Positions 14,668-39,678 of a stretch of 64,000 bases of DNA are shown here, piece by piece (the first letter of the stretch is position 1; each line of letters begins with the position of its first letter). The stretch lies in assembly GCF_018982965.1 (NCBI RefSeq), contig NZ_JACBYP010000005.1:1-64000 (forward strand). The letters run 5' to 3'. The translations under genes were made by a program, and so were the position numbers. Source of the stretch: Streptomyces mayonensis. Its GTDB lineage: Bacteria; Actinomycetota; Actinomycetes; Streptomycetales; Streptomycetaceae. The notes beneath the pieces are model-generated. The model was not told the DNA's origin. It saw only the letters and a list, made by a program, of their open reading frames with translations, and did not search any database.

Positions 14668-14668
14668 T

Positions 14669-21206: not shown

Positions 21207-21255
21207 GTCCGCGAATCCTTTGCTCCGGCGAAACGGGTGAGGCTTGGGTCGAGCC

Positions 21256-21333: not shown

Positions 21334-21390
21334 CGGGGCTGGTGGAGTACGTCCTGGTCGAAGCCGGGCCGCGCGGTCCGCGGGGCCACC

Positions 21391-21428
21391 GCGGTGGGAC
21401 GGAGTCGGCGCGGTGGGACGGAGTCGGC
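21391..21428. repeat. 19-bp direct repeat, two copies
   Basis: Two adjacent copies of a 19-bp unit beginning GCGGTGGGACGGAGTCGG lie just downstream of the MbtH gene. They belong to the same repeat-rich gap as the CTGATCGGG array. Confidence 0.85.
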
Positions 21429-21456
21429 GCGGGCCCGGGAGCGGGCTGCCGGCACC

Positions 21457-21675
21457 TCAGCGGGTGCGTTCGGCGTGCGCCACCAGACTGGCCGGACGCA
21501 GGTCCGTCCAGTGCTCCTCCACGTAGGCGAGGCAGGCGGCGCGGGTGTCCTCGCCGTGCACCACCGACCATCCCCCGGGTACTTCGGCGAACGCGGGCCA
21601 CAGCGAGTGCTGGTTCTCCTGGTTGACCAGGACGAGGAAGCGGGCCTCGTCGTCATCGAACGGGTTGGCGCCCAT
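21457..21675 (-). CDS. MbtH-family NRPS activator
   Basis: A 72-aa protein with the full MbtH signature: MGANPFDDD, then [19 protein letters not shown], and TDLRPASL near the end. MbtH proteins bind the N-terminal part of adenylation domains and keep them soluble and active. The partner is expected to be the two A domains of the siderophore NRPS. It lies 71 bases after the monooxygenase gene. Confidence 0.95.
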
Positions 21676-21746: not shown

Positions 21747-23135
21747 TCAGTCGGCCGTGACGGCGAGGTCCTCGGCCGGCTCCGCCCCGGCGGCCGTGAC
21801 CGGCACGCTCCGTCCGGCACGGTCCAGCAGCAGGGCGTCGCAGATCTCGCCGGAGCGGACCGCGAGCGTGGACAGCAGCGAGGACGTGATGCCGTGCGTG
21901 TGCTGCGAGATCGCACCCTGCACGTAGATTCCCGCGCGTACCCGCGACGTGGTGAGGACCCGGTGGTCGCGGCTGATCCGCAGCCGCCCCCGGCCGTCCG
22001 TCAGACACTCCTCGGCCAGTGGACCGAGCAGGGTGCGCGGGTCGGCGGGGCGGTACCCGGTCGCCATCACCACCGCGTCGCAGTCCAGGGTGTACGGCTC
22101 GCCCTCGACCAGTGGGCGCAGGTGCAGCCGCACATCGCCCTCGCGCTCCTCGACGGCCGTGAGGGACGTCGTGTTGAGGAAGCGCAGCCGCTCGGCACCC
22201 GCGATCTTCTCCTGGTAGGAGGTCCGGTACAGCTGCTCGATCAGGTCGGGGTCGACGACCGAGTAGTTGGTGTTGGAGTGGTAGTCCATCAGGGACTGCT
22301 TGACGTCCTCCGGCGCGGAGTAGAAGTGGTCCACCGCGTCCGGGTCGAAGATCCGGTTGGCGAAGGCGCTGTCGTCCGAGGGGCTGTACCCGTACCGGCC
22401 GAAGACCGCGCAGACGTCGGCGTCGGGGAACTCGCGGTGCAGGAACTCGACGGTCTCCGCGGCGGACTGGCCGGCGCCGACGACGGCGAAGCGGCGGTGC
22501 GGGCGGCCGGTCAGCGAACGGTGGTGCGGCAGGAGGTCCCGGTTGTGCCACACCCGCGGGCCCGGTTCGACGCCCTCGGGGAACTTGGGCGTGAGTCCGG
22601 TCCCGACGACGAGGTTCCGGGCCCGCAGCGCCTCGGCCGCGGCCGTGGGGTCGTCCACCGGCCGGGAGAGCACCTCGAGGACGTCGCCGTCGCCCGGCAG
22701 CCGTACCGAGTGGACCTGCCGGCCGTAGCGCACCTGTTCGCCCATCGCGGCGGCGCACCAGCTCAGGTACTCGTGGAACTCGATCCGGGTGGGGAAGAAG
22801 GTCTTCTGGTTCATGAAGTCCACGAGGCGGCCGCGCTCGTGCAGGAACCGCAGGAAGGTGAAGCGGCTGCCGGGGTCGCGCAGGGTGGCCAGGTCCTTCA
22901 GGAAGGACACCTGCATGGTGGCGCCGGCGAGCAGCATGCCCCGGTGCCAGCCGAACTCCCGCTGCCGTTCGAGGAAAGCCGTGCGGAGCGCGCGGGCGCC
23001 GCCGCTGTGCGCGTTGTGTTCCGCGATGGCGATGGCCAGTGCGAGGTTGGCCGGGCCGAACCCGATGCCGACCAGATCGTGGACCGGCTGCTCGTCGTAC
23101 CGCTCCGCGCCTGCGTCTGCGTGCCCTGCTGACAT
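21747..23135 (-). CDS. L-ornithine N5-monooxygenase
   Basis: A 462-aa flavin- and NADPH-dependent N-hydroxylase of the SidA/PvdA/CchB family. It has the FAD motif [15 protein letters not shown], the NADPH-binding segment [22 protein letters not shown] in the substrate region, and the family's C-terminal [13 protein letters not shown]. It makes N5-hydroxyornithine, which the formyltransferase then converts to a hydroxamate. It is the first gene after a perfect-looking iron box, so it should be induced under iron starvation. Confidence 0.93.
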
Positions 23136-23300: not shown

Positions 23301-23933
23301 TCATCGGTCCGCGAACACGCGGTCCGTGGTGGTCACCACCGCACAGCGTCCCGCCGACCAGCGCAGGGCCATCGCGTGTTCCTCCGGTGAGAAGTCCGCC
23401 GTGGCATCGGCGACCACGAAGGACCTGATGTCACGCATCCAGGCGTCGCAGGCCGTCGTCATGACGCCGATGTGCGCGTACACCCCGACGATCACCAGTT
23501 GGTCGCGGCCCCAGCCGCGGATCCGTTCCTCCAGGTCGGTACGGGCGAACGCGCTGTACTTCCATTTGGTCAGGACGGTGTCCCCCGGCGCCGGAGCCAC
23601 CTGCGCGGGCACTTCGAGGATCGCCGGGTCGTCGGCCGCTCCCGGCCCCCAGAAGTCGAGTTGGAGGCCCCGCTGCTCGGGGGTCTGCCCGCCGATCTGG
23701 GTGGAGTACACGACCGGCACACCGAGGGCGCGCGCCCGCTCCAGGAGCCGGGCGGTGTTCGTGAGCATCCCGGTCAGCGGCTGGTCCCCGGCCGGGAAGG
23801 CGGACAGGAAGTGCTGTTGCAGGTCGTGCACGAGCAGGACGGACCGCGCCGGGTCCGCCGTCCAGGAGACCCGGTTCTCGGGCAACTCGTCGGACGTGGG
23901 GAGCGGGTAGGCGGCGATGGCGGGAAGTGCCAT
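23301..23933 (-). CDS. Isochorismatase (single-domain)
   Basis: A 210-aa enzyme that hydrolyses isochorismate to 2,3-dihydro-2,3-dihydroxybenzoate and pyruvate. It matches the N-terminal half of EntB/DhbB: SVLLVHDLQQHFLSAF with the catalytic Asp, TVLTKWKYSAF with the Lys, and VGVYAHIGVMTTACDA. The aryl carrier domain usually fused to it is absent and is supplied by a separate gene. It lies 12 bases after the DHB-AMP ligase in the same direction. Confidence 0.92.
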   Translation of the reverse strand: MALPAIAAYPLPTSDELPENRVSWTADPARSVLLVHDLQQHFLSAFPAGDQPLTGMLTNTARLLERARALGVPVVYSTQIGGQTPEQRGLQLDFWGPGAADDPAILEVPAQVAPAPGDTVLTKWKYSAFARTDLEERIRGWGRDQLVIVGVYAHIGVMTTACDAWMRDIRSFVVADATADFSPEEHAMALRWSAGRCAVVTTTDRVFADR

Positions 23934-23945: not shown

Positions 23946-25718
23946 TCAGTGCTGTTCGGAGGTGTCCACGTGCTGTTCGGCGGTGTCCACGTGCTGTTCA
24001 GGTGCGTCTGCGTGCTGTTCGGGTGTGTCCGCGTGCAGTTCGGCGGTGTTCGCGTGCAGTTCGGGGGTGCCCGCGGCGGAGCGCAGGCCCTTCTTGCTGA
24101 CCTTGCCGACACCCGTCTGCGGGAAGGCGTCCACGAAGCGGACGAGATCCGGGACCTTGTACGCGGCGACCCCGCGGGAGCGCACGAACGCCTTGACGTC
24201 CGCGGGCCGCAGCGGTTCGGCGTCCTCGCGCAGGATCACGTGCGCGAGGGTGCGCTCGCCCAGGAACTCGTCGGGCACCGCCACGAGCGAGACGTCGTGG
24301 ACGGCGGGGTGGGCGAGGATGATGTTCTCGACCTCCTCGGGGGCGACCTTCTCGCCGCCCCGGTTGATCTGGTCCTTGGCCCGCCCCTCCACCACCAGGT
24401 GACCGGTGGGAGTCCGGCGCACGATGTCGCCGGTGCGGTAGAAGCCGTCGGAGGTGAACGACCGGGCGTTGTGCTCGGGAGCCCGCCAGTAGCCCCGGAC
24501 GGTGTACGGCCCGCGGGTGAGCAGGTGGCCGAACTCCCCCTCGGGCACGTCCCGGTCGGCGTCGTCGACGACCCGGATCTCGTCGTCCGGTGAGATCGGC
24601 AGGCCCTGAGTGGTGACGACCGTCTCCGTCCCGTCGTCGAGGCGCGTGTAGTTGACCAGCCCCTCCGCCATCCCGAAGACCTGCATCAGCCGGCACCCGA
24701 GTGCGGGCTCCAGCCGTCGCGCCGCCTGTTCGCTGTATTTGGCGCCCCCGACGAGGACCAGGCGGAGCGAGGTCAGGTCGTACTCCGTGCGCGCGGCCGC
24801 TTCCGTCCAGAGAAGGGCCAGCGGGGGAACGAGACCGGTGAGGGTGACGGCCTCGCTCTCGATCAGCGGGAAGGCGACGGCCGGCTCGGGCCCGGGACAC
24901 AGGACGACCGTGCCGCCCGCGTAGAGGGTGCCCAGCCAGCCGGGCGAACTCATCGGGAAGTTGTGAGCCGCCGGCAGCGTCACGAGGTACCGCGTGTCCC
25001 CGTCCACGCCGCAGATCTCGTTCGACCCGCGCAGCGAGTAGACGTAGTCGTCGTGGGTGCGGGGTATCAGCTTGGACACACCGGTGGTCCCGCCCGAGAG
25101 CTGCAGGAACGCCAGCTCGTGCGGCTCGGGGCCGGGCAGCGGCCCGGACGGCTCGCGGGGCACGTCGGCGAGCGCCGTGTGCTCGCCGGGATCGCCCAGC
25201 ACGAACACCTCCTTCAGCCGCGGGCAGTTCTCCCGGACCCGGGAGGCGAGCGCGCGGTGGTCGAAGCCGCCGAGCTCGTCCGGGACGACGTACGCCACGG
25301 CCTCGCTGAAGGAGCAGAAGTGCTGGATCTCGGTGTCGCGGTGGGCCGGCAGCGCGAACACCGGCAGGGCGCCGATCCTGAACAGCGCGAAGACCACCTC
25401 GGCGAACTCGGCCACGTTCGGGAGCTGGACGACGACGCGGTCGCCCCGTCCGATCCCGCGTTCCGCGAAACCGGCGGCCAACCGGTCCGCCGCCTCGTCC
25501 AGTTCCCGGTAGGTACGAGTCCTGCGCCGGGGCGCGGGATCCACCAGCGCGACCCGGTCGGGGTGTGCCGCGGCCCGCTCGCGCAGCACTCCGCCGAAGG
25601 TCTCGCCGCGCCAGTAACCCCGCTCGCGATAGCGGTCGGCGAACTCGGCGGGCCAGGTCGGGGCGTCCAGGCCCGGGGTGAGCGCGTCCGGCGGGGTGCG
25701 GGGCTGTTCAGCGGTCAC
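23946..25718 (-). CDS. dhbE: 2,3-dihydroxybenzoate-AMP ligase with heptapeptide-repeat tail
   Basis: A 590-aa aryl-activating enzyme of the EntE/DhbE family. It adenylates DHB and loads it on the aryl carrier protein. Motifs are [15 protein letters not shown] (P-loop), [13 protein letters not shown] (DHB ligase active-site segment), [21 protein letters not shown], and the catalytic C-terminal Lys in [12 protein letters not shown]. The normal protein would end near residue 550. Here 40 more residues form five and two-thirds copies of a 7-residue unit (T/A-P/A-E-Q/L-H-A/V-D), giving one His per repeat. ATG start. The ligase sits between the dehydrogenase and isochorismatase genes. Confidence 0.93.
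23949..24068 (-). repeat. 21-bp tandem repeat encoding the His-bearing tail of the DHB-AMP ligase
   Basis: Five complete 21-bp units and a partial sixth encode heptapeptides such as [14 protein letters not shown] and TAEQHVD, ending in TSEQH. Each unit contributes one His and one Glu. The array stays in frame up to the stop codon, so its copy number can change without breaking the enzyme. Confidence 0.93.
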
Positions 25719-25884: not shown

Positions 25885-26688
25885 TCAGGCGCGCAGAGTG
25901 GCGCCGCCGTCGACGTAGAGGTCGTGCATGGTGATGTGCCGGGCCCGGTCGGAGGCCAGGAACGCCACGGCGTCCGCGACGTCGGCGGGCTCGGCGATCC
26001 GGCCGAGCGGGATGCCCGTCCGGTACGCGGCGAGGTCTCCCTCGATGACGCCCCGGCGCCCGGCCTCGGCACCTCCCGGGGCGTCCTCCCACATGGCCCG
26101 CTGCATCTCCGTCAGGGTGGAACCCGGCGAGACGGTGTTGCAGCGCACGCCGCGGGGCGCGACCTCCAGACCGAGGCACTTGGTGAACATCACCGAGGCC
26201 GCCTTGGACGCCGCGTACGCCGCCATTCCGGCACGCGGAACGCCTGCCGCGTTGGAGGCCACGGTGACGATGCTGCCCCGGCCCCGGGCGGCCATCCCCC
26301 GTGCCACCGCCCGGGAGACGTGCATGACGCCGTGGGTGTTGACGCCGAACACTGCGGCCCAGTCGGCGTCGTCCAGTTCGAGCACGGGACCGCCCCGCAG
26401 GACGCCTGCCACGTTCACCAGGATGTCGAGCGGCCCGAGTTCACGTTCGGCCACGTCGACCACGCGCTCCACGGCAGCCACGTCACTCACGTCCAGCTGT
26501 CGTGCGACGACGCTGCCACCGGCCTCCGTGTGCCCCTTGGCGACGGCCTCGGCCGCGCCTGCGTCCACGTCGGTCGCACACACCCGGGCTCCCTGCCCGA
26601 CCAGGGCGTCCACCACGGCGGCGCCTATACCCCGGCCCGCGCCGGTGACCAGGGCCGACCGCCCCTCCAACTCCCGCACCCGGCTCAC
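25885..26688 (-). CDS. dhbA: 2,3-dihydro-2,3-dihydroxybenzoate dehydrogenase
   Basis: A 267-aa short-chain dehydrogenase/reductase. It has the NAD-binding [11 protein letters not shown], the NVAGVLR motif, the catalytic triad in [10 protein letters not shown] and YAASKAA (Ser, Tyr, Lys), and C-terminal [13 protein letters not shown]. The terminal pattern is typical of EntA/DhbA. It oxidises the isochorismatase product to 2,3-dihydroxybenzoate. The GTG start was chosen because GGGGGACAG lies just before it and the family N-terminus begins there. It is the first gene of the DHB arm, about 180 bases after an iron box. Confidence 0.9.
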
Positions 26689-27177: not shown

Positions 27178-27490
27178 GTCGCCGACCACATGCGGGCCGA
27201 CCTTGTCATCGACGCCCCGCACGCGGCCGAACGGACCCGCGCCGGCCTCACCGGAGCCGTCCTCCACAGCGATCACGGGGCCCAGTGCCGCGGCTGGGCC
27301 TCCGCCGACGCCCACCGCGAGGCCGGCGTCACGCGGTCCATGGGCGCGAGCGGCTCCGGCGCGGACTCCGCACTCGCCGCCTCCTGCAACTCGACCCGCG
27401 AGCGGGAGATTCTCCACGGCCCGCCGGGCCCGGGACACCGCGCGCGAAGCCCGTCCGGACCTCTTCCGCCGGCTTCACCGCGTGGGACTT
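27178..27490 (+). pseudogene. Decayed IS3-family transposase (integrase catalytic core)
   Basis: The reading [27 protein letters not shown] and [18 protein letters not shown] matches the DDE core of IS3-type OrfB transposases, whose usual forms are VFHSDHGSQY and [22 protein letters not shown]. The catalytic-region Glu of ALAESFN is lost (ALAASC). After [12 protein letters not shown] the homology shifts frame and continues as [14 protein letters not shown]. No start, no intact end and no inverted terminal repeats were found, so this is an old fragment. It marks the boundary between the siderophore cluster and the DUF6603-like operon. Confidence 0.72.
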
Positions 27491-27656: not shown

Positions 27657-28988
27657 TCAGCGCTTCCCGCCGTTACGTCCCGCGAGGACCAGGACGGCTT
27701 CGTCCCCTCGCGGGGTTTCGGCGGTCAGGACCAGGGAGGCGACGTCGGGCGCCTTCGGGGCGGTGCAGCGCAGCGAGATCTTCTTGACGGGAGGGAGCAG
27801 GTTCGGCAGACCTGCCGTCGGTGACGCACTCGCGGGCAGCAGGGCGGCGAGCACCTTGCCGAGCGGGATGCCGTCCTCGAAGACCGATGTCGCGGTCAGA
27901 CCCACCGATTCCGGATCCTTGTCCGCCTCCAAGTCGAACTGCATCGACGGCTCTTCCTCCTCCGCGGAGCCGAGGGCGAAGGAGCCCTTGACCGTGACCT
28001 CGATGGCACGGCCCTTGTCGGTGCCTTCTTTGGCGGCACCCTCCTTCGCGGCGGGGGCGTCCTCGGCGGTGTCCTCTTTGGCGGTGCCGTCCTTGACGGT
28101 GATCTTCATGTCGAGTCCGACCCGGGTCTGGACATCGGAGGTCAGGGGGAACTCGGCGAACGCCTTCGCCTCAAACTTTCGTCCGGATTCAGTGGACTCG
28201 ACCGTGAAGCTGAGTTCCTGCAGGGTCAGTTCGGCCAACGAGGCCGGAAGACCACTGCCCATGGTCTGCTCGGCCAGGGTGCTGATGTCATGGAAGGAGA
28301 TGCTCTCGGCCTTCGCGTCCAGCTTCCAGCTCCTGGGGTCCTGGCTTTCCTCCGTCCTCGCCTCGATTTCCGTACTGCCCACGGTGAGCTTGCCCTCCAG
28401 CGTGCGTCGGTCCTTCTGCTCGGAGGCGAGGAACAGCACCGGTTCGGCGAGGTCGGGCAGTTTCCACCGGGCTCCGGAGAGGACAGGGGCTCTGGAGGCG
28501 ACCGAAGTCTTCTCCTGCCCGGCTTCCTCGACCTCTGCGGCTTTCTTCCCCTCTGCAGCTTTCTCTGCCTTCTGCTCCTTCTCACCCCCTTCCTCTTTCG
28601 TGCCAGGGACCGCGTTGAACGCGGCCACGAGTGACTGTGCCCCCAGGCTGCGGAGCGGGCTGAGGTCGAACGCGGGGAAGGGCTCCGGCAGGCGCCACCC
28701 CGGGGCGTCCACGAGCAGCGTGAATCCCAGGACCGTGCCGTCCGGCGGGTCGGCCCGGAGGAACGTCGCCACTGCTCGGCACGGCTCCTTGCCGAGGGCG
28801 CGCACGGCGCAGCGCCCTCGCGCCGTCATGCTTTTCTCGGTGTACTCCAGCACCTTGAATTCCAGCTCGGAGCATGCGAGATGTGTGGAGAAGACGCCGC
28901 TGACCACAGGGTCGGCGAAATGGTCGGCCCGGAGCTTCAGGCTCCCCTTCTGTGCCATGTCGGCGATTTCCTCTACGGACAACGGCAT
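27657..28988 (-). CDS. Uncharacterised 443-aa beta-rich protein
   Basis: No named family is recognised with confidence. The protein has no signal peptide or membrane segment. Residues about 1-130 form one unit (LPEPFPAFDLSPLRSLG). A charged, low-complexity Lys/Glu/Ala linker runs from about 135 to 160. A beta-rich unit follows, with LPASLAELTLQELSFTVES and alternating hydrophobic strands, interrupted by a second Lys/Glu/Ala stretch. The strand pattern resembles the N-terminal parts of large DUF6603 proteins, and a DUF6603-like protein is encoded upstream in the same gene set. It is separated from the glycine-rich gene by 184 bases with a strong hairpin, so it may have its own promoter. Confidence 0.8.
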   Translation of the reverse strand: MPLSVEEIADMAQKGSLKLRADHFADPVVSGVFSTHLACSELEFKVLEYTEKSMTARGRCAVRALGKEPCRAVATFLRADPPDGTVLGFTLLVDAPGWRLPEPFPAFDLSPLRSLGAQSLVAAFNAVPGTKEEGGEKEQKAEKAAEGKKAAEVEEAGQEKTSVASRAPVLSGARWKLPDLAEPVLFLASEQKDRRTLEGKLTVGSTEIEARTEESQDPRSWKLDAKAESISFHDISTLAEQTMGSGLPASLAELTLQELSFTVESTESGRKFEAKAFAEFPLTSDVQTRVGLDMKITVKDGTAKEDTAEDAPAAKEGAAKEGTDKGRAIEVTVKGSFALGSAEEEEPSMQFDLEADKDPESVGLTATSVFEDGIPLGKVLAALLPASASPTAGLPNLLPPVKKISLRCTAPKAPDVASLVLTAETPRGDEAVLVLAGRNGGKR

Positions 28989-29139
28989 TGCTGCATCCCG
29001 TCCTCGATGGTGTGTGGCCGCTTCAGCCGCCCGTTTGGTGAACGGGGGCTCGGCGTCGTGCTGGGCGGTGCATGTCGCGTGCCGAGCCCGGTGGAAGCCT
29101 GTGGTGCAGGGGTTCCCGGCAATTCCCGGGGGCGGGGAT

Positions 29140-29169
29140 CCGGCCCGGCTCAGGGCGATGCCGGGCCGG
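29140..29169 (-). terminator. Perfect 10-bp hairpin after the glycine-rich gene
   Basis: CCGGCCCGGC and GCCGGGCCGG form a perfect 10-bp stem with a 10-base loop, starting three bases after the stop of the glycine-rich gene. There is no T-run. Position and strength make it the likely end of the five-gene operon, leaving the 443-aa gene as a separate or read-through unit. Confidence 0.75.
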
Positions 29170-29172
29170 GTC

Positions 29173-30318
29173 TCAGTCGGGGAACACGTGGTTTCCCCAC
29201 GCGATGGTGACCTTCGCGGGGCCGGTGTTGTTCACGTCGGCGGAGACGAGCGTGGCCCGGTCGGCGTTGAAGTAACTGTCGCCGCCGCGCCCGCCGCTGC
29301 CTCCGCCCCCGCCGGCTCCTCCGCCACCGCCTCCTCCGCCGCCGCCTGCTGCGTACGTGCCCGACCAACCTTGCCCGGAGCCTCCCCCACCACCTCCTCC
29401 ACCGCCCATGCCCGCAGGCCCTCCACTGCCACTGCTCCCGGTCCCGTGGCCACTGCCGTTCACACCGCCGCAGCCACCTTGCCCGCCGTAGCCGCCCTGT
29501 CCCCCGTGGCCGCCGTTGCCGCCGCGGTTGAATGGACCATCGCTGTACTTGGGCAGGCCCCCGCGGCCGCCGTTCTGTCCGGATCCGTATCCGCCGCTGT
29601 TTCCCTCCTGTCTCCCAGCATGACCGCCGGTACCGGCCTGGGACGGTGTCCCGCCCGTACCTCCGCCTCCGCCACCGCCTCCGTACTGCCAGGTGACGAG
29701 GTTGGTTCCCCAGCCCTCGGCTGCGTCGGCCCCGCTACTACCCGGGCTTCCGTCCGCAGCGCTCCCGCCCGGGCTGCCTGCGAACGTGCCGACGGCGGCG
29801 CCGGCGAGTCCGGCATCGCCTCCGACGCCTCCCCGTCCTCCGTCACCGCCCCACCCGCCCAGTCCGCCCTCGGCGTAGCGATTCGGAGTACCCGGCCCGC
29901 CGCGCGCGCCGGCTTCCCCGTTCTCCCCTCTGCCACCCGAACGCCCGGCGTCCCCGCCACTGCCCGCTCCCGCGATCAGTGTGTCGCCGCGAAAGATCTG
30001 TGCCGACGCACCCGACGCGCCCGACGCGCCGTCACGGGCCATACGGACGCGGATGACGTCTCCTGGACGGACGTGGAACAGGGCCCGGATCCCCGCGCCC
30101 CTGCCTCCGGTCGCCCCGTTGTCGGACCTGCCACCGGCGCCCTGGGCATGCATCGAGAGGATCGTGACGCCGGCAGGAACAGCGAACGTGTGGTCCATGG
30201 TCGTACCACTGTCGGTGAAGTCCAGATGGCCGGCCGGGTTGCGGATGCGCAGCTTGCCGTCGGCCCTGATGTCTCCCTTGGCATTGAGCCGCCCGCCCAC
30301 GGTGACCTTGCCCGTCAT
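29173..30318 (-). CDS. Glycine-rich fibre/adhesin-like protein
   Basis: A 381-aa protein with three parts. Residues 1-35 are a short strand-turn repeat (KVTVGGRLNAKGDIRADGKL). Residues about 43-120 resemble the glycine-rich-domain entry seen in phage fibres and secreted proteins: HTFAVPAGVTILSMHAQGAG followed by HVRPGDVIRVRMA. From about 115 to 350 it is extreme Gly-rich sequence (GGxGGxGG, runs of eight to ten Gly, few hydrophobics). The tail NNTGPAKVTIAWG closes a beta fold. Such sequence can pack as a polyglycine-II bundle, as in some phage adhesins; that is inference. There is no signal peptide. The ATG overlaps the 373-aa gene stop (ATGA). It is not a PE_PGRS protein, since no PE domain is present. 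Confidence 0.85.
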   Translation of the reverse strand: MTGKVTVGGRLNAKGDIRADGKLRIRNPAGHLDFTDSGTTMDHTFAVPAGVTILSMHAQGAGGRSDNGATGGRGAGIRALFHVRPGDVIRVRMARDGASGASGASAQIFRGDTLIAGAGSGGDAGRSGGRGENGEAGARGGPGTPNRYAEGGLGGWGGDGGRGGVGGDAGLAGAAVGTFAGSPGGSAADGSPGSSGADAAEGWGTNLVTWQYGGGGGGGGTGGTPSQAGTGGHAGRQEGNSGGYGSGQNGGRGGLPKYSDGPFNRGGNGGHGGQGGYGGQGGCGGVNGSGHGTGSSGSGGPAGMGGGGGGGGGSGQGWSGTYAAGGGGGGGGGGAGGGGGSGGRGGDSYFNADRATLVSADVNNTGPAKVTIAWGNHVFPD

Positions 30319-31436
30319 GAGAGCTGCCCCCGAAACGGCGTGCCCTTGGCGTCGCGGAACTGCGCGTCGGTGGTGATGTCGCCGGTCGAGGCGACAGCGC
30401 CGGTGACGTTCATGTCGGTGCCGACGGTGAGGTCCTTCTTCGCGACCACGGAGTCCCCGACCGTGAGGGTGCCCATTCCGCCGTACAGGGTGCCGGAGAC
30501 ATGGCATGCCTTGTCGACGACCACCGCACCCTCGATCCTGAGGTAGGGGGTTTTGTCGATGTTGTCCGGGCCGCTCGGCTTGATGCTCTTGACCGTCAGG
30601 CGGTCGATGGCCGGTTCTTCGACGGCGACCGCGGTCGAGAGGTGGTGGGTGATGGTCTCGCCGGAGCGCTTGAGCGTCACTCGGACACGGAAGTGCGTGT
30701 CGCGGGTGATACCGGTGACGGGGAGCTGCCATTTCTCCTGGCGGGTCAGCTGAACCGGGGGCTTGTCCCCGTAGTAGACGTCGCAGACGGCGTCCGGCGG
30801 TGCGGTCCACGTGAGGACGGTCTTCTGGTCCGGTTTGAGCAGAGTGGCAGGGGTGGAACGGGGATTGCCCTGGGCGTCGGCCTCGTAGAGGGCGAGGTCG
30901 CCGACCACGTCGGCGGTGAGGGCCTCGGCCGGCGGGAACTTGGCGACAGCAAGGCTGACATGGTGCTCCTCCCAGGTATCGCCCCTGTCGACGCTCACGG
31001 TCTCCTGGATGGCCAGCAGGGCCGTTCCCGCGCGCGCGTTGGTCCTGAAGTCCGTGATGCGAAGGAGGAGGCCATGGGTGGTGGGGGAAACCGGCTCACC
31101 GTTGACCGGGCGGACCGTGACCTTCGTGCCCTCCGCCGCCGGGAAGGCGGCCGTCTCGTCCTGGGGCAGGGCGAGGAGGACTCCGTCCTGGATCTCGTCG
31201 ACGGTCCACTGGTCGGCCGGTTCGGCGGTGACGGTGACCTGCTGGCGCGCGGGCACCAGGTGCTTGGGGAGGTCGCCGGCGGGGAGGACCACGCTGATCT
31301 GTTGGCACAGGACGTCTCGGGGCCCCGAGTTGGACACGACGACGTAGAGGTGAGCGGGCCGGTCGGTGGCCAGCGTGGCCGGGACCGTGGCCAGGCTGTA
31401 GGTCAGGCGGCTGGTGCCGTCGTGCTGGGCGCTCAT
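30315..31436 (-). CDS. Uncharacterised 373-aa protein with fibre-like C-terminus
   Basis: No full-length family is recognised. The N-terminal ~130 residues look like an immunoglobulin-like beta domain (PAHLYVVVSNSGPRDV). A second beta unit with TVLTWTAPPDAVCDVYYG, similar in style to fibronectin type III, follows near residues 200-270. The last ~90 residues are a strand-turn ladder (GTLTVGDSVVAKKDLTVGTD, then TGDITTDAQF) like the repeats of phage tail fibres. The Gly-rich protein encoded next starts with the same type of ladder. No signal peptide or membrane segment. The start follows GGAGGA and lies 30 bases after the 1157-aa gene. Confidence 0.83.
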   Translation of the reverse strand: MSAQHDGTSRLTYSLATVPATLATDRPAHLYVVVSNSGPRDVLCQQISVVLPAGDLPKHLVPARQQVTVTAEPADQWTVDEIQDGVLLALPQDETAAFPAAEGTKVTVRPVNGEPVSPTTHGLLLRITDFRTNARAGTALLAIQETVSVDRGDTWEEHHVSLAVAKFPPAEALTADVVGDLALYEADAQGNPRSTPATLLKPDQKTVLTWTAPPDAVCDVYYGDKPPVQLTRQEKWQLPVTGITRDTHFRVRVTLKRSGETITHHLSTAVAVEEPAIDRLTVKSIKPSGPDNIDKTPYLRIEGAVVVDKACHVSGTLYGGMGTLTVGDSVVAKKDLTVGTDMNVTGAVASTGDITTDAQFRDAKGTPFRGQLS

Positions 31437-31466
31437 GTGTGGCTGTTCCTCCGGCTTTCGCGGCGG

Positions 31467-34400
31467 TTACGGGGATGTGGTGTCGGCGGCCGGCGGGGGC
31501 GGGGGCGGGCCGGAGGAGGTGAGCAGGCCGGAACGCAGGACGGGGGCCCGGCCGGTCCAGCGCGGGCCGGTGCTCGCGGCCGAGGTCGCGAAGTGGGTCC
31601 AGGTGGCGCCGTCCGTGGCGCGCTCCGCCCAGGTCCACGTCTGGTCGTCGACGGTCCGTACCGGCAGGGCGACGGTGTCCTCCCGTGCGGTGGCCGCCGG
31701 AGTGAGCAGCGGTCCGCTGCGCAGGACGGTTCGCATACGGTCCAGTGGTCCGTCGGTGAAGCGGCGGGGGATCTCCAGTGTCGTGGTGGGCAGCAGGCCG
31801 GTGGTGGCGTGCACGGGGGCATGCGGGTCGGCCAGCAGCGTCAGGTGCTGAGGTGTTCCGGCCATGACGTGGAGGTGGGTTCCGTCCCCGATGGCGGCGA
31901 GTTGCGGATGGGTGCCGTCCGGTGCGGCCACGGTCCGCAGCACGCCGGGCTCGGTGTCGGTGAAGTAGCCCACCAGGCCGTCGCCGACGCGCTGTTGTTC
32001 GCCCAGGCGCACCGGCCAGGGGTAGTCGGTGAACTCCGGGCTCGGCGGCTCGGGGTCGAAGACGTGCTGCCAGCCGGGGTCGGTGGGCGGTGGCCCGTCC
32101 AGGTCCAGTCGGAGGCGGCAGCGGACGAGGGCCAGCGGGCGCCCGGCCAGTGCGGCCGAGGCCGAGGTGGCGCCCGCGGTGGGCAGGACGTCCGCCAGGG
32201 AGGTTTTGAGGATGTCCAGGGCGGCGGGCAGCGGGCTGTCCTCGGCGTCGACGCCCTGGAACCAGGTGATCAGCGCCCGCAGATGCGGTGAGGTGGCGGA
32301 CAGCGCGGGGACGCCGGCGGACTCGCGCGGCAGTGGTGTCCACACGGCCTCCGGGGCCGGCCTGCCGAGCCGGTAGGCCCGGCGCAGCAGGCCGAGGGCG
32401 GTGCCGTCGGGTTCGTAGACGGCGAGTGAGGCGTCGATCGGGTTGGGGACGATCCAGCCGGCGATCGGATTGCCGTCGCCCAGGGAAGCGGCCTGGTAGG
32501 TGCCGCGGGTGGCGTCCATGAGCTCGATCCCGAGGCGCGCGGCCTGCGGCAGGCGCGGCGGCAGTTGGACGACGTGTTCCGGGGTGGTGTCCAGGGCCTC
32601 GGGAACGTGCTGCGGGCGCAGGCGGTCGGCGACCACGGGGTGCCGGTGACCGCTCGTTCCGCCGGTGCCCGCGGGGGTGATGACGTCCAGGGAACGCCCG
32701 AAGGAGTCCACCAGGGTCAGGCGGAGGAAGCGGAACTGTCCTGCCCGCAGCTGCTGGAATCCGGAGGCCGGCCAGCCGGTGAGGTCGTCGGGCAGGGGGC
32801 CGGGGTCGGGGCTGGTGCGGTAGGCGTCGCCGATCAGTTCGGCCAGCTCCGGCGGTGCGCCCAGGGGCGGGACGCCCTGGCCGGGGTCCTGGCCGATGAG
32901 CATGTCGCGCAGTCCTGCCAGTGAGCTGGACAGGATGTCCCCTTGGTCCACCCGACAGGCCAGGGCCTCGCAGTGGGGGGCCAGTTCGGGGGCGTGGAGC
33001 GCGTACTGCCGGATCCGGCCTGCCAGGCTGCGCGGCAGGTGGTCGCTGAGCAGTGTCCGGCCGGTGTAGGTGCGCGCGGGCTCGGGCCTCGGGCCGGTGC
33101 AGGTGTAGTCGTCGCCGTCGAATTCCCACTGGCCGTGGGGCAGGGGGTGGTACTCGATCTTCCAGAGCAGGTGGAGCGGGTTCCACGGCTGTTCCCAGGG
33201 GTCGCCGCCGAAGGCCGGGGCGGTGCCGGTGCGCGGGGTCGGCACCGCCCCCGCGTCCGGTCGGCTGACCGCGCCCAGCACGACGGGGCAGTTCGGGTCG
33301 AGCAGGAACGCCTCGCGCAGCAGAGCGCGGGTGGAGCCCGGCATGACGGAGTGCTCGCCCGCGCCGAGGTCGAGGGTGTTGCACGCGAGGTCGCCCCGTT
33401 CGGCGTTCAGCCCGTCGGGGCTGCCGGGGTGGTGGACGGCGGTCACGGTCCGGTCGCCGAACCGGCAGGGCAGTGTGGTGTCGTCCGGGGCGGGCAGGGA
33501 GCCGGCGCCCTGCAGGACGACGGCGGGGTCCAACGCACGGTGGAAGGGGGCCGGGGCCACGCGCTTGAGGTCCCAGCCGTCGGGCAGGTGGCGCTGGGCG
33601 TACTGGCCGATGGACGCCGCCAGTTGTTCGGGTGTGTCGCCGCCGGGGATGCGGGCCCGGAGGCGTTCGGCCTCCTGACGGCGGGTGCGGACGCGAGCGG
33701 CGAGGCTGTCCGTGCGCCGGAGGTCGAGCTCCTGGGCCAGCCGCTCCCGGTAGCCGTCCGGCAGTACGGGCAGACCCTGGAGGCGCCACATGCCGTGCAG
33801 CCTCCGGCGCAGCCCGGCCAGCTCGCGCTCCGCCTCGTCGTAGGTGTGCTGCGCGGCGTTCAGGGCGGCCTCGGCCTCCCGGGCCTGCTGCTCGTCGTGG
33901 GGCGGTGCGGGCTCTTGCGCGGTGCTGGGCGGCACCGCGTGCCAGGCGTACGAGGTGGTGCCTTCGGCGAATCCGGCACCGAGCCGGATGTCCGCGAGGC
34001 GCTGCGTGTGGTCCGGCTCGTCCGCCCGGTCGAGCGTGCCGGACTGGAGCTGGTCGAGCAGTGCGGGGGCGAGGGTGAGGGCGGGGTCGGTGGCCGCCCT
34101 GTCGGCGGCCAGGGCGGTGAGCGCGGAGTCGGCACTGTCGGCGACGGCCACGGTCGGGTCGGGCCACTGTTCGTCGGTGGGGTCGTGGCGGCGCAGGACG
34201 CTGTGGACGCGGCCGGTGTAGACGGTGCGGGTGCCGGGGGGCGGGGGGCTGTCGGTCTGCCAGCCCAGGGAGGATTCCAGCGTTTCGCGTACCTGCGGGT
34301 CGGCGAGCGGGTCGTCGGAGTCCACCGCGTGCCAGCCGATGACCTGGTAGGCCAGGCGGTCGTACGGGTCGGGCAGGAGCGCCAGCGGGTCGTGGAAGGA

Positions 34401-34940
34401 GAAGACGTTCCGGCAGTGGGGCTGGAACGCGGCGAACGAGAGGGACCCGGGGCCGATCGCGGTCAGGAAGGTGGGCTGCCGCGCGGCGGTTTCCGTCCAC
34501 CGCGCGGCCTCGGTGTGGCGGCCGATCCTGGTGGGTGCGACCCGGCCCCGGCCGGGCCGCAGGTAGGGCGCGGTGCCCTTGCTGTTGTCTAGGAAGTCGC
34601 TCTCGACGACCCAGGCGGCGGTGGCGTACTCGCCGTCGGCTGTGCAGGCGTGCCGGACGACCAGCCAGCGGTTCGGGGCGGGCGGGAGCGTGACCTCGCC
34701 GCCGGGAGTGGTGGCCCGCCGGAGTGCCGCCGGAAGTTCCCAGTGCAGGTGCACACCGTCGTTCTTCGGGTCGGTGGCGAACTCCGTGTCGGTGCTGGCG
34801 TAGGGCGAGGGGTCCGGGGAGCGGCGGACGCTCAGGAGGCGGTAGTTGGGTGTCCAGCGGTGGAAGGAGTCCCGGCCGCGCACCTGGTCGTTGACGACCA
34901 GCGCCCGGAGCCTGACGGGAACCAGCAGGTCGGTGTTCAT
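31467..34940 (-). CDS. Uncharacterised 1157-aa protein with central coiled coil
   Basis: No named domain is recognised. The N-terminal third contains dense aromatic/His motifs (GVHLHWELPAALRR, FAAFQPHCRNVFSFHDPLA, RLAYQVIGWHAVDSDD). Residues about 350-432 form a long Arg/Glu/Ala/Leu coiled coil (AEAALNAAQHTYDEAERELA). The C-terminal two-thirds are beta-rich, with WNPLHLLWKIEYHPLPHGQW, and end in a Pro-rich tail. There is no signal peptide or membrane segment. ATG start with AAGGA six bases before it; the ATG overlaps the stop of the 726-aa gene (ATGA). The size and coiled coil suggest a structural or scaffold role; this is inference. Confidence 0.85.
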   Translation of the reverse strand: MNTDLLVPVRLRALVVNDQVRGRDSFHRWTPNYRLLSVRRSPDPSPYASTDTEFATDPKNDGVHLHWELPAALRRATTPGGEVTLPPAPNRWLVVRHACTADGEYATAAWVVESDFLDNSKGTAPYLRPGRGRVAPTRIGRHTEAARWTETAARQPTFLTAIGPGSLSFAAFQPHCRNVFSFHDPLALLPDPYDRLAYQVIGWHAVDSDDPLADPQVRETLESSLGWQTDSPPPPGTRTVYTGRVHSVLRRHDPTDEQWPDPTVAVADSADSALTALAADRAATDPALTLAPALLDQLQSGTLDRADEPDHTQRLADIRLGAGFAEGTTSYAWHAVPPSTAQEPAPPHDEQQAREAEAALNAAQHTYDEAERELAGLRRRLHGMWRLQGLPVLPDGYRERLAQELDLRRTDSLAARVRTRRQEAERLRARIPGGDTPEQLAASIGQYAQRHLPDGWDLKRVAPAPFHRALDPAVVLQGAGSLPAPDDTTLPCRFGDRTVTAVHHPGSPDGLNAERGDLACNTLDLGAGEHSVMPGSTRALLREAFLLDPNCPVVLGAVSRPDAGAVPTPRTGTAPAFGGDPWEQPWNPLHLLWKIEYHPLPHGQWEFDGDDYTCTGPRPEPARTYTGRTLLSDHLPRSLAGRIRQYALHAPELAPHCEALACRVDQGDILSSSLAGLRDMLIGQDPGQGVPPLGAPPELAELIGDAYRTSPDPGPLPDDLTGWPASGFQQLRAGQFRFLRLTLVDSFGRSLDVITPAGTGGTSGHRHPVVADRLRPQHVPEALDTTPEHVVQLPPRLPQAARLGIELMDATRGTYQAASLGDGNPIAGWIVPNPIDASLAVYEPDGTALGLLRRAYRLGRPAPEAVWTPLPRESAGVPALSATSPHLRALITWFQGVDAEDSPLPAALDILKTSLADVLPTAGATSASAALAGRPLALVRCRLRLDLDGPPPTDPGWQHVFDPEPPSPEFTDYPWPVRLGEQQRVGDGLVGYFTDTEPGVLRTVAAPDGTHPQLAAIGDGTHLHVMAGTPQHLTLLADPHAPVHATTGLLPTTTLEIPRRFTDGPLDRMRTVLRSGPLLTPAATAREDTVALPVRTVDDQTWTWAERATDGATWTHFATSAASTGPRWTGRAPVLRSGLLTSSGPPPPPPAADTTSP

Positions 34941-37117
34941 CGGGTTCCTTCGAAGGAGAGGGTGAGCCGCTGCGGGGCGCGCACCAGCTGCACGGCGAAC
35001 TCGGCGGGGGTGAGCGTCGTCCGGGGCGCGATCTCCGGCGCCAGTTCCCGGGCCAGGAGGGCCCCGAGGCGGCCGGCGTCCAGGATCCGCGCCCCGGCGG
35101 CAGTGGTGGTGATCGGCGCGGTGACCGCGCGGCCGTCCAGCGGCGTGCCGGTCCGGCCGGGGGTCAGGGTGCGCGGTGTCACCGTCGCGTTCCTCGTGCT
35201 GCCCACGCCGAAGTGCAGTCCCTGGGCGGGTTCGCTGAGGGTCAGGCGGTCGGGCATCCGGTCGAAGAGCATCAGCAGGACGTCGGCGCCCAGGGCCTCG
35301 CTGCGGATCACCTCGACCGGTGCGGTGTCGGCGGCGGCCTCGAAGATCAGGGCGGGCCAGCCCGGGACGAGGGCCGAGCGCAGCAGCAGGCCTGCAGTCG
35401 GAACGGGCCCGTGGGTGTCGAGCAGGCCGTCCAGTTCGGTATCGGTGGCGGCATCGGCGTCGCTGTGCCGGTCCAGGCTGCGCGCGCCGTCGAGCAGGGC
35501 GTCGAGCCAGCCGCGGTCGACGTGGAACAGGCGGAGACTCTCGGGTGGCAGCATCCGCTGGTCCGGTACCAGGCAGTCGAACGGCACCCCGCTGAGTGTG
35601 CGCAGCCGGTTCAGCCACTGGGCCGCCTCTCGCGCGTCCGGCGACGGCTCCTGCGGCGCGGAGAGGTCTCGCGGGGCGTCGGGGCGGTGGGTGGCAGGGG
35701 CCGTGGCCGGGGGGCGCGTCTCGTCCTCGGGGGCGCCGAGGGCCGTGGCCAGCGCGTCGAGGGTGCCACCGCGCAGCAGCTCCTCGAACAGCTCGCGCGG
35801 TGACCCGCCGGCCGTCGGTCCGGTGGGCAGGTCGCCGCCGTGGAGCTGCCGTTGGTACGTCGCGTACTGGCGGACGGTCGCCCGGCGCAGTCTGCCCCGG
35901 TGACGCAGGCGGACCAGGGTCGTGGCGAATCCGGGGTCGGCGAGGGCCAGGGCACGGCCGGTGTTCCAGGCGCAGGCGTAACCGGCGGCGAAGGTGCCGG
36001 TGCGTGGTTCGTGGAGCAGGAGGCCGTCGGCGTCGGGGAAGTGGCCGTCCGCCGGGCGGGGCAGCGCGGGCGCGACGCGGGGCAGGAACGGGCCGTTGTA
36101 CCAGGCCAGGGCGCGTTCTCCGGAGTCCGTGATGTGGGTCGTCGGGACGAGGCCCTGCTCCAGCAGGGAGCCCAGGTGCGGCGGCAGTCCGGTACCCGCG
36201 GCAGGGGGACGCAAGGGTGCGGCGCTGTGCTCGCCGTTGCCCTGGGCGAAGCGTTCGGCCAGCAGGCCGAAGCTTTCCCCGGCCCGGGGGCCGGAGGTGA
36301 AGGTCCAGCTGTGCAGCGACACCAGACGTACGGGCCTGCCGTCGGCCTGCGCCCCGGGCTCCCGGTGTCCCTCCAGCGAGACCAGGTGGGCCGCGTACCT
36401 GGCCTCCTTGGCTCCCGGCGCCTCGGTGGGGAAGCGCGTCGTGGTGACGACCGCGTACGCGGCCGGTGCGGTGTCCTGGCCCTGGGCGGGCGCCGCGTCC
36501 CGGCCGCCGGTGCGGGCGTGGGCGAGGAGTCCGAGGTCGTGCGTCTTCGGGAGGAGCTGTTCCAGCAGGTCCTCGGGTACGTCGATGACGTGGCAGGGGG
36601 TGTCGAGCAGGGCGGGACCCGCGCTGTCCCGGTCCAGGGCGGGTCCCTTGACCGCGGTGTCGCCGTCGAGGAGCGTTCTCACGGTCACCGAGTGGGTGGT
36701 GCCCAGGGCGTTGGGATCACCGGGCAGTTCGCCCTCGCCGAACAGCAGCAGCGCCAGCCAGGGAGCCTTGTCACGGCCCGGGACCTGGTCGGTGAAGGGC
36801 CTGCGCTGCCAGGGCAGGGCCGCCGTGTCGAGGGTGATGTGCGGGAGCAGGTCGTGGAAGGGGCCCTGGCTGTGGGGGGCCGGGTACACGGCGTGCACCC
36901 ATGAGGGGTCGAGACGGAACTGCGGGGCACGGACGTCGACGATCTGTTCCACCGTGCCGAGCCCGTCTTCCGGCAGCTGCGCGGAGGGCAGTCGCTGCTC
37001 GACGGTGATCAGGTAGCGGCCTGCCTCGATGCCGGGCTGCAGGCGATCGTCGAAACGGACGAGGTTCTCGTCGGGTGCGAGCTGCCCGGCCGGATGCGTG
37101 GTCATGAGGTCCTTCAC
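34937..37117 (-). CDS. Uncharacterised 726-aa protein
   Basis: No named domain is recognised. The N-terminus has a distinctive block: GIEAGRYLITVEQRL, then FRLDPSWVHAVYPAPHSQG, FHDLLPHITLDTAALPWQR and PWLALLLFGEGEL. The middle contains AWYNGPFLPR and GYACAWNTGRALALADP, and a charged helical region follows near residue 400. The C-terminal third is mixed. No signal peptide or membrane segment. The GTG shown overlaps the DUF6603-like gene stop (GTGA), but an ATG four codons later, with AAGGA in front, may be the true start. It is translationally coupled to genes on both sides. Confidence 0.83.
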   Translation of the reverse strand: MKDLMTTHPAGQLAPDENLVRFDDRLQPGIEAGRYLITVEQRLPSAQLPEDGLGTVEQIVDVRAPQFRLDPSWVHAVYPAPHSQGPFHDLLPHITLDTAALPWQRRPFTDQVPGRDKAPWLALLLFGEGELPGDPNALGTTHSVTVRTLLDGDTAVKGPALDRDSAGPALLDTPCHVIDVPEDLLEQLLPKTHDLGLLAHARTGGRDAAPAQGQDTAPAAYAVVTTTRFPTEAPGAKEARYAAHLVSLEGHREPGAQADGRPVRLVSLHSWTFTSGPRAGESFGLLAERFAQGNGEHSAAPLRPPAAGTGLPPHLGSLLEQGLVPTTHITDSGERALAWYNGPFLPRVAPALPRPADGHFPDADGLLLHEPRTGTFAAGYACAWNTGRALALADPGFATTLVRLRHRGRLRRATVRQYATYQRQLHGGDLPTGPTAGGSPRELFEELLRGGTLDALATALGAPEDETRPPATAPATHRPDAPRDLSAPQEPSPDAREAAQWLNRLRTLSGVPFDCLVPDQRMLPPESLRLFHVDRGWLDALLDGARSLDRHSDADAATDTELDGLLDTHGPVPTAGLLLRSALVPGWPALIFEAAADTAPVEVIRSEALGADVLLMLFDRMPDRLTLSEPAQGLHFGVGSTRNATVTPRTLTPGRTGTPLDGRAVTAPITTTAAGARILDAGRLGALLARELAPEIAPRTTLTPAEFAVQLVRAPQRLTLSFEGTR

Positions 37118-39678
37118 AGGTGGGCGAGGCGCAGGGGCGGGGAGGAGAAGGCGGCTTCACGGGCGAGGCGGTCGAGCTCCGGGGCGGCGTCGAGCTGGTA
37201 GCCGGCGGCGGTCAGGGCATCGAGCGCGTCCCGCCGCAGCGCGGTCTGCTCCTTGGTGTCGACCACAAGTGCGCCGGTGCCGTCGGTCTCCGCCCTCACT
37301 CCGCGCACCCCCGTGGCAACCGCGCCCGGGTCGAGCGGCAGTGTCCCCCGGCCCAGCGGGATGTGGTCGAGCGATGCGCGGCAGGTCTCGGCGTCCTCGG
37401 GCAGGGAAGGGGGCGGTACCTCGATGCGTGCCCCGCTGACCAGGCCCTCGACGAGGGCGGCCTGACCGTTGCCGAGTACGTCGCCGGGCTTCCCCTTCCC
37501 CCACAGCGCCGTCGGCTGCGGGGTGGCGTGGGCGGTGACGCGCCAGCTCCGCAGGCGGTCGGCGGACAGGGCGTCCCAGGTGCCGCGCGTGTTCTTCTTC
37601 GCGACCGTCACCGAGAGCGGGACGTCGAGGTCCGTCTTGCCCATCGGACGGATGCTGACCAGGGTTCCCTCTCTCCCGCTCCGGCCGGCGCCGTTCACCT
37701 TCAGCGCGGAAGCAGGGAAGGCGCTGTTGACGGTGAAGGACAGGCCGTCGCAGGTGGCGGTCCACGCCTTGGCCGCGTCGGGGTCGCTGCCGGCCGGTTC
37801 GTTCTGCTGTCGCGCGGCGGCGTGGTCGGGGTGGAGTCCGTCCACGGGGGCGAGCGTCAGGGGCTGCGACGGCAGCAGCGTGCGGAACTGCTCCCAGCCG
37901 ATGGGGGCGGGAGGGGTTCTGGGCTCGCCGAAGTCGATCGGGATGGTGATGCCGAGGACCTTCACCCGCGCGGTGCCGCCGAACGGCGGGCCCCACACCG
38001 ACAGCCACGCGCCCAGCGACGTCTCGCCGCTCCAGCCGAGCAGCAGCCACACCTGGGCGGTGATCTCCGCCCACACGTCCATCTCGTAGTGGAACGGCGC
38101 CCACTCGACCAGGGCGTCGAAGCCGATACCGACCCGGGCCCTGGCCCACGAGCCGTCGTAACGGAGATCCAGGCGGCCGCCGGCCATGACGGCCGCGGGG
38201 GTCAGCGCGAAGTAGCTGGTGCCCTTCAGGGTCAGGGAAGAGCCGGAAGCCCAGTCCACACCGACGGGGTCCGGGCGCGGATAGTGGGCGGGCGGGGTGT
38301 AGCGCGGGTGGTAGCCGCCGATGGTGAAGACGAAGTCGCCGGGGTGCTCACTGTTGCCGAACCACAGGCGCAGCGCCGCCCCGCCGGTCAGGTGCACTGC
38401 CGGATCGAGCAGGAAACTCTCCGGGGAGAGCCGGGCATCGACGGCGAGTACGTCGGCGGAACGCCGGTAGACGGCAGAGAGCGCCAGTTCCACGTCGGCG
38501 TACGGCTTGCCCAGCTTCTTCTCCGGGTCGGGGAACTGGGCCCTGGCCGTGCCCAGCAGCCCCACCACCAGGTCGTCCGCGCCGAACTCGGCGAACGCCA
38601 GGGCCTTGCAGTGCACCGTCTCGAAGATGGCCGCGTTCAGGCCGAGAGCCAGCCAGATGCTGCCGTCGTGCGGGGTGACCCAGGCGGGGGCGCTGTCGGT
38701 CCCCCCGGTCAGCTCCTTGAGCACCTCCAGTGGCTCGGGCGGCGTGTCCCGGCCCGCGCGGTCGATACCGGCCAGCAGGGGGAATCCGGCCACCTCGTCG
38801 ATGGCGGGCACGCGCAAGCTGCTGTTGTAGCCGAAGCCGGCTTTGACGCCGGTGATCCGGAAGGCCGGCGGGCCGCCGAACTTGCCTCCCAACTCGGCGT
38901 ACAGAAAGAGCGACTGCGCACCGTCGCTCTTCAGGGTTCCGTAGGCGCCGGTCGCCGCGAACGCGGCGCTGGGAGTCCTGATCAGGGCGCTGCCCTCGAT
39001 CAGGAGGCTGTAGGGCGACTCGCTGCCGACCGGGGTGTTCAGGAATGCGCCGGACATCTCCAGCGGCGGCTTGTCGAAGGTCAGGCTCAGCCCGTCGAGC
39101 CGACCGCAGGGCGGGGAATCCTTGCCGTCCAGGGCAAGGCCCAGCCCGAGCCCGTCCACTTCCAGCTCCAGGGGACCGGCGCGCACGCCGGCGTCGCACA
39201 GGACCCACACCCTCTCGTCGTGGTAGCTCGCGCCCAGCCGCCGCAGGAGCAGAGGCCCGAAGGAGTGGTCGAGGTCGGCCCAGGCGACGGCCGGTGCCGC
39301 CGGTTCCTCGTCGGCGGCCGGCACGGCCTCGGTCAGGGCACGCGGTTCGGCTCCGGCCTTCGGCTTCCTGGTCTCCGTCGAGGACTTGGCGTCGGCGAGG
39401 CGGAACAGCAGAGGGGCGCGCCGCTTGCCTGCCCACGTGTAGTCGAGTGCCACCAGGGCGGCCCCGCGGGACTTCTCGGGAAACGCGGGGTGGGTGCCGT
39501 CGAGGCGGGACACCTGGTCGTTGAGACCCTTCACCAGTTCGGCTGTGAGAGCCGGGGAGGCGATGACAGCCTTCACGCCCGTGATGCCGAGGTCGTGCTC
39601 AGGGGAGATGTAGTCGCTGACAAGGGGGAGAGCGGAGAGTTTGGCGGTGAGCCGGGCATCGACGAGCAGGGCGAACAA
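37114..39678 (-). CDS. DUF6603-like 854-aa protein
   Basis: Residues about 280-600 match my memory of the DUF6603 pattern: GGPPAFRITGVKAGFGYNSS, VPAIDEVAGFPLL, FTIGGYHPRYTPPAHYPRP and SYFALTPAAVMAGGRLDLRY. DUF6603 has no established function. The N-terminal ~100 residues form a separate small domain, and the last ~250 are beta/helical with a repeat-poor tail. No signal peptide is evident. The start is TTG, supported by GGAAGG six bases upstream. It is the first gene of the operon, with a 718-base non-coding region ahead of it. Confidence 0.82.
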   Translation of the reverse strand: MFALLVDARLTAKLSALPLVSDYISPEHDLGITGVKAVIASPALTAELVKGLNDQVSRLDGTHPAFPEKSRGAALVALDYTWAGKRRAPLLFRLADAKSSTETRKPKAGAEPRALTEAVPAADEEPAAPAVAWADLDHSFGPLLLRRLGASYHDERVWVLCDAGVRAGPLELEVDGLGLGLALDGKDSPPCGRLDGLSLTFDKPPLEMSGAFLNTPVGSESPYSLLIEGSALIRTPSAAFAATGAYGTLKSDGAQSLFLYAELGGKFGGPPAFRITGVKAGFGYNSSLRVPAIDEVAGFPLLAGIDRAGRDTPPEPLEVLKELTGGTDSAPAWVTPHDGSIWLALGLNAAIFETVHCKALAFAEFGADDLVVGLLGTARAQFPDPEKKLGKPYADVELALSAVYRRSADVLAVDARLSPESFLLDPAVHLTGGAALRLWFGNSEHPGDFVFTIGGYHPRYTPPAHYPRPDPVGVDWASGSSLTLKGTSYFALTPAAVMAGGRLDLRYDGSWARARVGIGFDALVEWAPFHYEMDVWAEITAQVWLLLGWSGETSLGAWLSVWGPPFGGTARVKVLGITIPIDFGEPRTPPAPIGWEQFRTLLPSQPLTLAPVDGLHPDHAAARQQNEPAGSDPDAAKAWTATCDGLSFTVNSAFPASALKVNGAGRSGREGTLVSIRPMGKTDLDVPLSVTVAKKNTRGTWDALSADRLRSWRVTAHATPQPTALWGKGKPGDVLGNGQAALVEGLVSGARIEVPPPSLPEDAETCRASLDHIPLGRGTLPLDPGAVATGVRGVRAETDGTGALVVDTKEQTALRRDALDALTAAGYQLDAAPELDRLAREAAFSSPPLRLAHL

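Follow-up and report, generated by a model that had tools for sequence, protein, structure and literature searches.

Within the first 64,000 nucleotides (nt) of contig NZ_JACBYP010000005.1 of Streptomyces mayonensis, hereafter the window, the minus strand carries a 12-kb operon whose first gene encodes a protein of the family DUF6603. This protein, P1 (37114..39678; 854 aa, TTG start), is followed by P2 (34937..37117; listed with 726 aa), P3 (31467..34940; 1157 aa), the fibre-like P4 (30315..31436; 373 aa), P5 (29173..30318; 381 aa, 44% glycine over residues 61–345) and, past a hairpin (~29137–29172), P6 (27657..28988; 443 aa). A preliminary description of the window had listed these open reading frames with the same lengths. 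All were confirmed, with a revised start for P2. The longest stop-free frame in the operon comprises 1749 codons, as compared to a maximum of 870 in 100 Markov-1 sequences, and P1–P4 are under purifying selection, with ratios of nonsynonymous to synonymous substitutions (dN/dS) of 0.32–0.65 (four Streptomyces, own script).

A contig search returned the operon in S. klenkii, S. griseocarneus and S. abikoensis (loci L002–L004; P1–P3 66–77% identical over the best segments). The TTG start of P1 and its GGAAGG site are both conserved in L002–L004, on which ground we reject the idea that P1 has been cut short by a frameshift. P2 probably starts at the ATG at position 37105 and measures 722 aa, because L002–L004 share the N-terminal MTTHP but not the upstream GTG of the 726-aa version; this ATG has an AAGGA site and leaves an 8-nt gap between P1 and P2. 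Of the 4-base overlaps and the 30-base gap described earlier, the overlaps of P2/P3 and P4/P5 (ATGA in both cases) and the 30-nt P3/P4 spacing are borne out by the coordinates, whereas an overlap of P1 and P2 would need the unshared GTG. The strong hairpin previously noted 3′ of P5 was recovered as well: the full 96-nt stretch folds at -43.4 kcal/mol (z -3.5; 0 of 200 shuffles equal), although it lacks a run of U and is not among the terminators listed by a terminator scan.

The assignment of P1 to DUF6603 proved sound. It matches PF20248 (E 6.9e-133) with 444.3 bits against a curated cut-off of 27, over profile positions 2–499 of 502. The family itself has no assigned function, and the surrounding operon lies outside its definition: P2–P6 gave no Pfam or NCBIfam match above cut-off. 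Profiles of P1, P2 and P3, whose size and common operon might bring a Tc-type toxin complex to mind, had no match below E 1 in the PDB, a P2 match at E 1.9 being disregarded. By eye, no signal peptide, membrane segment or export signal was seen in the operon proteins. The earlier label of a ‘coiled-coil giant’ for P3 goes too far, with one heptad-like stretch visible by eye near residues 350–440 of 1157. An abstract-level literature search returned no paper naming DUF6603 or PF20248 and no description of the operon.

To place the operon among its relatives, we collected loci found by P3, P2 or DUF6603 searches and holding P3. After removal of L061 and L063, duplicates of L002 and L006 with identical coordinates, this yielded 37 loci, including two copies on one contig (L081 and L082). 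The order P1-P2-P3 on one strand is kept in 31 of them and P2-P3-P4 in 26 (profile matches), spanning Streptomyces, Embleya, other Actinomycetota and Paenibacillus. Counted as failures are a locus with unrecognised P1 (L010), one at a contig end (L082), three fragments (L084, L086 and L087) and a rearranged one (L085). Among the 27 loci in which P1, P2 and P3 are all near-complete—the other ten being dropped for a missing or partial protein—pairwise distances are tightly correlated (P1-P2 r 0.970, P2-P3 r 0.989, P1-P3 r 0.979; none of 999 permutations as high). P1 (with its detached part P6; see below), P2 and P3 are hence a conserved, co-inherited core. The preliminary description had considered whether homologues might turn out scattered or belong to unrelated known enzymes; they instead keep their order and P1–P3 are inherited as a block. 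The correlation proves block inheritance and not binding, since linked genes would give the same result. The stoichiometric complex and the shell-like assembly that had also been proposed may form, but adjacency and co-inheritance do not show binding.

The operon is patchily distributed. P3 occurs in 22 of 392 genomes of the genus, the present one included, some with two copies. Among 396 genomes of the phylum, 12 contain DUF6603 and four contain P2, all four within those 12. Eight plasmid records carry the operon, namely three of S. clavuligerus, one of Streptomyces NBC_01276, two of Embleya and two Paenibacillus plasmids. At the DNA level, the window is ~80–82% identical over P1–P4 to L002, L003, L004 and L062 and 69–78% identical in pieces of P5–P6, and this identity stops 28 bp before the P1 start. 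The window flanks (14.0–27.1 kb and 40.4–48.0 kb) have no match in these four loci, a comparison covering the few kb beside the operon that the relatives' loci hold. Next to the operon lies an IS3-like transposase fragment on the plus strand (27190..27420; NF033516 E 2.7e-7, 30 bits against a cut-off of 160; no Pfam match). Since the homology boundaries are sharp and the flanks unrelated, the operon is evidently horizontally mobile, which upholds the acquisition that this insertion-sequence remnant had previously been taken to hint at.

P6 had been presented as a partner of the other proteins, a role that its relatives contradict. In 13 loci, P1 is extended at its N-terminus, relative to the P1 of the window, by 373–689 residues (2121 in L089). 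The P6 of L002 aligns (E 4e-27) with residues 15–559 of a 1853-aa frame in L008, and a P6 profile could be aligned over 539 columns with a profile of the long-P1 N-terminal parts (probability 99.3, E 6e-21; this and all other hhalign E-values refer to single pairs). Searched singly, the P6 profile detected nine of the 13 N-terminal parts at E 0.001 or better; L069, L077 and L089 scored above 0.1, and L088 was unlisted. In the Embleya locus L007, a P6-like frame directly precedes P1. Because P6 aligns with the N-terminal parts of long P1 forms, we reject it as an independent partner; to judge by these alignments, a long DUF6603 protein has been cut in two in the clade of the window, its N-terminal half now standing last in the operon. 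In the present genome this half looks degraded: it is ~140 residues shorter than in L002–L004, leaves ~200 profile positions unmatched, and has a dN/dS of 0.70–0.75, as opposed to 0.28–0.36 among L002–L004. S. griseocarneus (L003) encodes, on the opposite strand beside its operon, a second P6-like protein (2701–4764) and a metallo-beta-lactamase relative (1048–2217) whose metal motif is damaged. The DUF6603 protein of L089 (3592–13293) measures ~3230 aa, with ~2100 residues before the DUF6603 part.

We also inspected DUF6603 genes outside this operon type. The gene after DUF6603 was weakly P2-like in all six further annotated loci (two haloarchaea, Rhizobium and three Streptomyces; E 2e-7 to 1.5e-3) and in five of seven further loci from the phylum (L098, L099, L100, L102 and L103; E 0.006 or better), E-values that refer to sets of a few dozen proteins (30 for the six annotated loci). 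Among the remaining two, the contig of L097 ends after DUF6603 and the next gene of L101 is not P2-like. A pairwise profile comparison aligned ~195 columns of P2 with these next genes (probability 95.7, E 9e-9), supporting common descent of this stretch of the P2 N-terminal region. P3, by contrast, was not seen to resemble the large or terminal proteins encoded in other DUF6603 operons (hhalign E 0.66 and 0.13), and homology with them was rejected. DUF6603 and P2 therefore look like the common core, because the next gene is P2-like while the later large proteins lack similarity to P3; P3, P4 and P5 look like the equipment of the present operon type. Domain content varies within this equipment: Embleya L007 has an F5/8 C domain in both P3 and P4, whereas only one of ten P3 members examined contains it.

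Whereas P1–P3 evolve slowly and together, P4 changes fast. It consists of a shared N-terminal part, an FnIII-like domain (~170–273), a ladder of short repeats that varies in length through insertions and deletions among relatives, and a variable end. Between L003 and L004, identity amounts to 86% in P1, 88% in P2 and 90% in P3; P4 still reaches 87% up to residue 280, beyond which the ends are unrelated. In L003 and L062, P4 runs on into a fused tip; in L004, L002 and the window, a separate glycine-rich P5 follows. Likewise, L072 shares 93–97% identity with L073 and L074 over P1–P3, as opposed to 67% and 76% over P4, with different shaft lengths and ends. P4 thus behaves as a fibre with an exchangeable tip, P5 being one such tip, and the fibre-like character earlier proposed for the whole set is backed, for P4/P5, by shaft-length variation and tip exchange. 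A base that changes slowly under a tip that changes fast and is exchanged is the pattern of a receptor-binding fibre, and P4/P5 may serve in receptor binding.

Structure prediction added modest detail. The AlphaFold model of P4 has a mean predicted local distance difference test score (pLDDT) of 43 and exceeds 60 only at ~180–258, with blocks at pLDDT 61–79 over residues 181–260. With VIA-align, residues ~170–273 matched many FnIII chains (Z 6.9–7.8, 2.4–3.5 Å, ~73–98 residues), all below Z 8, along with some phage tail-tip chains. The top row for P4, PrgB Ig-like domains at Z 8.6, was given no weight with a root-mean-square deviation of 17.3. Foldseek returned no PDB match for the P4 model at E 0.001 or better; a viral match (E 4.7e-4) was discounted at a template modelling score of 0.17, as were Antigen 43 for P4 (E 0.81) and PDB matches of P5 that resemble glycine-rich linkers. 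Beside P4, L075 (14297–15886) and L078 (13024–14628) carry related genes; the one scanned, that of L075, has beta-propeller and hemopexin-like matches, all of them under the Pfam cut-offs.

Phage tail fibres of the T-even gp38 type carry glycine-rich adhesin tips, and the likeness to the present operon—a conserved base, a repeat shaft that varies in length, a tip that is exchanged and a glycine-rich P5—raises the question whether the operon is a domesticated phage tail, or a tail-derived injection machine, with proteins diverged beyond recognition. The fibre itself speaks for such an origin, as do the tail-tip chains among the matches of the FnIII-like domain and a baseplate-V-like gene that P. 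polymyxa carries ~9 kb ahead of its DUF6603 gene. Streptomyces moreover hold cytoplasmic, tail-like contractile injection systems that possibly carry effectors (PMC10066040); like these, the operon would specify a multi-protein, cytoplasmic system that may carry effectors. However, no sequence relative turned up: P1, P3, P4 and P5 had no tblastn match in 50,697 phage records, alignments of P1, P2 and P3 none in viral contigs, and in PHROGs P1–P6 found nothing better than E 0.4 and ten P2 members nothing at 0.1 or better. No tail genes were recognised beside the operon and, unlike contractile injection systems, it lacks a sheath gene, the sole sheath match of the genome (PF04984) lying on contig C130 and the window on C241. 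We regard a tail ancestry as quite unlikely. On the P. polymyxa plasmid (L011), the region 13611–19623, ~8–14 kb before the DUF6603 gene, is annotated with baseplate assembly protein V, DUF4280 and a GH-E nuclease fragment.

Enzyme genes recur at the edges of some operons; as neighbours, with gene calls from a simple script, were Pfam-scanned for a hand-picked set, their counts are lower bounds. In at least eight of the 37 loci (L005, L007, L067, L070, L076, L080, L085 and L088), a ComEC-type metallo-beta-lactamase gene directly precedes P1 (in L007, its split N-terminal part), at distances from a 4-bp overlap to 29 bp. Seven of them carry a long P1, L007 the split one. Of five metallo-beta-lactamase proteins scanned with Pfam, those of L007, L080 and L062 exceed the cut-off and those of L005 and L088 fall below it, the latter two also matching PADLOC metallo-beta-lactamase models; L067, L070, L076 and L085 were assigned by blast cluster. 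The metal motif is present in L005, L007, L067, L070, L080 and L085 and falls outside the L076 fragment. In the PDB, the L005 protein finds its best match in ComEC (9vc6, E 0.0043), with which these proteins have only the metallo-beta-lactamase part in common. Other edges hold a subtilase before P1 (L081), M64 peptidases (L098, L099) or PhoD-like phosphatases (L091 above, L100 below cut-off) before other DUF6603 genes, and, 40–142 bp after P6 in L002–L004, an M91 peptidase-like protein (Pfam on L002, the others by its blast cluster; 85–90% DNA identity). A GajB match of the M91 protein (E 0.0054) was disregarded. No such enzyme gene, metallo-beta-lactamase included, was recognised beside the operon in the present genome, nor did the L002 M91 protein match anywhere in it, in a search without positive control. 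In Embleya L008, the gene before the long DUF6603 gene (3683–5878) consists, by eye, of two tandem near-identical repeats, with no Pfam family above cut-off.

These enzymes bear on two further explanations. In an intracellular conflict system, the large proteins would sense an invader and the edge enzyme would act as effector; the patchy, mobile distribution suits defence, and edge metallo-beta-lactamases match the PADLOC models LmuA, RTasMBL and Avs1a (E 1e-3 to 1e-12). The enzyme match, however, is to a large superfamily, P1, P2, P3, P4 and P6 had no PADLOC match at E 0.01, and the exchange of shaft and tip is easier to reconcile with extracellular ligand binding, leaving defence distinctly improbable. 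Alternatively, the proteins might coat hyphae or spores as a static adhesive layer, with variable tips tuning adhesion and unrelated enzymes at the edges. Fibre architecture and tip exchange, F5/8 C domains, large proteins that seem beta-rich by eye, and recognition of enzymes in a minority of the 37 P3 loci would all agree with such a coat. Yet no export or anchoring signal was seen by eye, and the metallo-beta-lactamase gene abuts P1 in eight loci and accompanies long P1, which argues for a functional link; we consider a static layer unlikely.

To the reading that we prefer, namely that the operon is horizontally mobile and encodes a protein complex that binds a target, we assign somewhat less than an even chance. 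P1–P3, with P6, would form a base that carries the P4/P5 fibre, which in turn would recognise a ligand presented by other cells or by a surface. In some genomes, an edge enzyme (ComEC-like metallo-beta-lactamase, M91, M64, subtilase or PhoD-like phosphatase) might be displayed on or carried by the base. Assembly would take place in the cytoplasm, given that no export signal was seen by eye and that Streptomyces contractile injection systems are likewise cytoplasmic, and release would proceed via lysis or another route. Assembly, ligand, cargo and export are all aspects that we infer from sequence. In the present genome, perhaps just base and fibre still work, because no edge enzyme was recognised and P6 looks degraded.

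Several observations weigh against this interpretation. Linkage alone would explain the co-inheritance of P1–P3. The FnIII match of P4 stays under Z 8 and possibly reflects just a common arrangement, and the AlphaFold model of P2, built from four close sequences, is unusable (mean pLDDT 28). Most P3 loci show no recognised edge enzyme among the neighbours sampled, and the metallo-beta-lactamase relatives of L003 and L062, which lie elsewhere, have damaged metal motifs. That the operon may be a new kind of system is a view resting on absent sequence matches in the libraries searched, behind which a fold relationship may be hidden.

A bolder, rather doubtful extension would see DUF6603 operons of bacteria and archaea as undescribed tail-less particles for targeted delivery, with a DUF6603/P2 core, lineage-specific large subunits, an enzyme cargo that is encoded at the edge and can be interchanged, and a receptor-binding fibre that can likewise be exchanged. 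A family known by number only, DUF6603 marks a multi-gene system that is conserved in Actinomycetota, Bacillota, Pseudomonadota and haloarchaea, is in part plasmid-borne, and combines a constant core with exchangeable parts (fibre tip, edge enzyme). If the complex does bind and modify other cells, it would add a new route by which microbes interact and offer a modular scaffold for binding; thanks to the tip swaps that occur naturally, its binding target is directly testable.

In the present genome, the operon is flanked by catecholate siderophore genes on one side and by dctA on the other. The siderophore region (4555–26661) holds, above cut-off, dhbA (25885–26661), a DHB-AMP ligase (23946–25718) and an isochorismate synthase (20010–21656) and, below cut-off, N-monooxygenase-like (21747–23135) and isochorismatase-like (23301–23933) genes, together with an ABC transporter (14669–16354) and a 3370-aa frame (4555–14667). 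Towards the far end of the window (54962–63881) lies a second biosynthetic cluster with a thioesterase, a ketosynthase/acyltransferase and non-ribosomal peptide synthetase modules.

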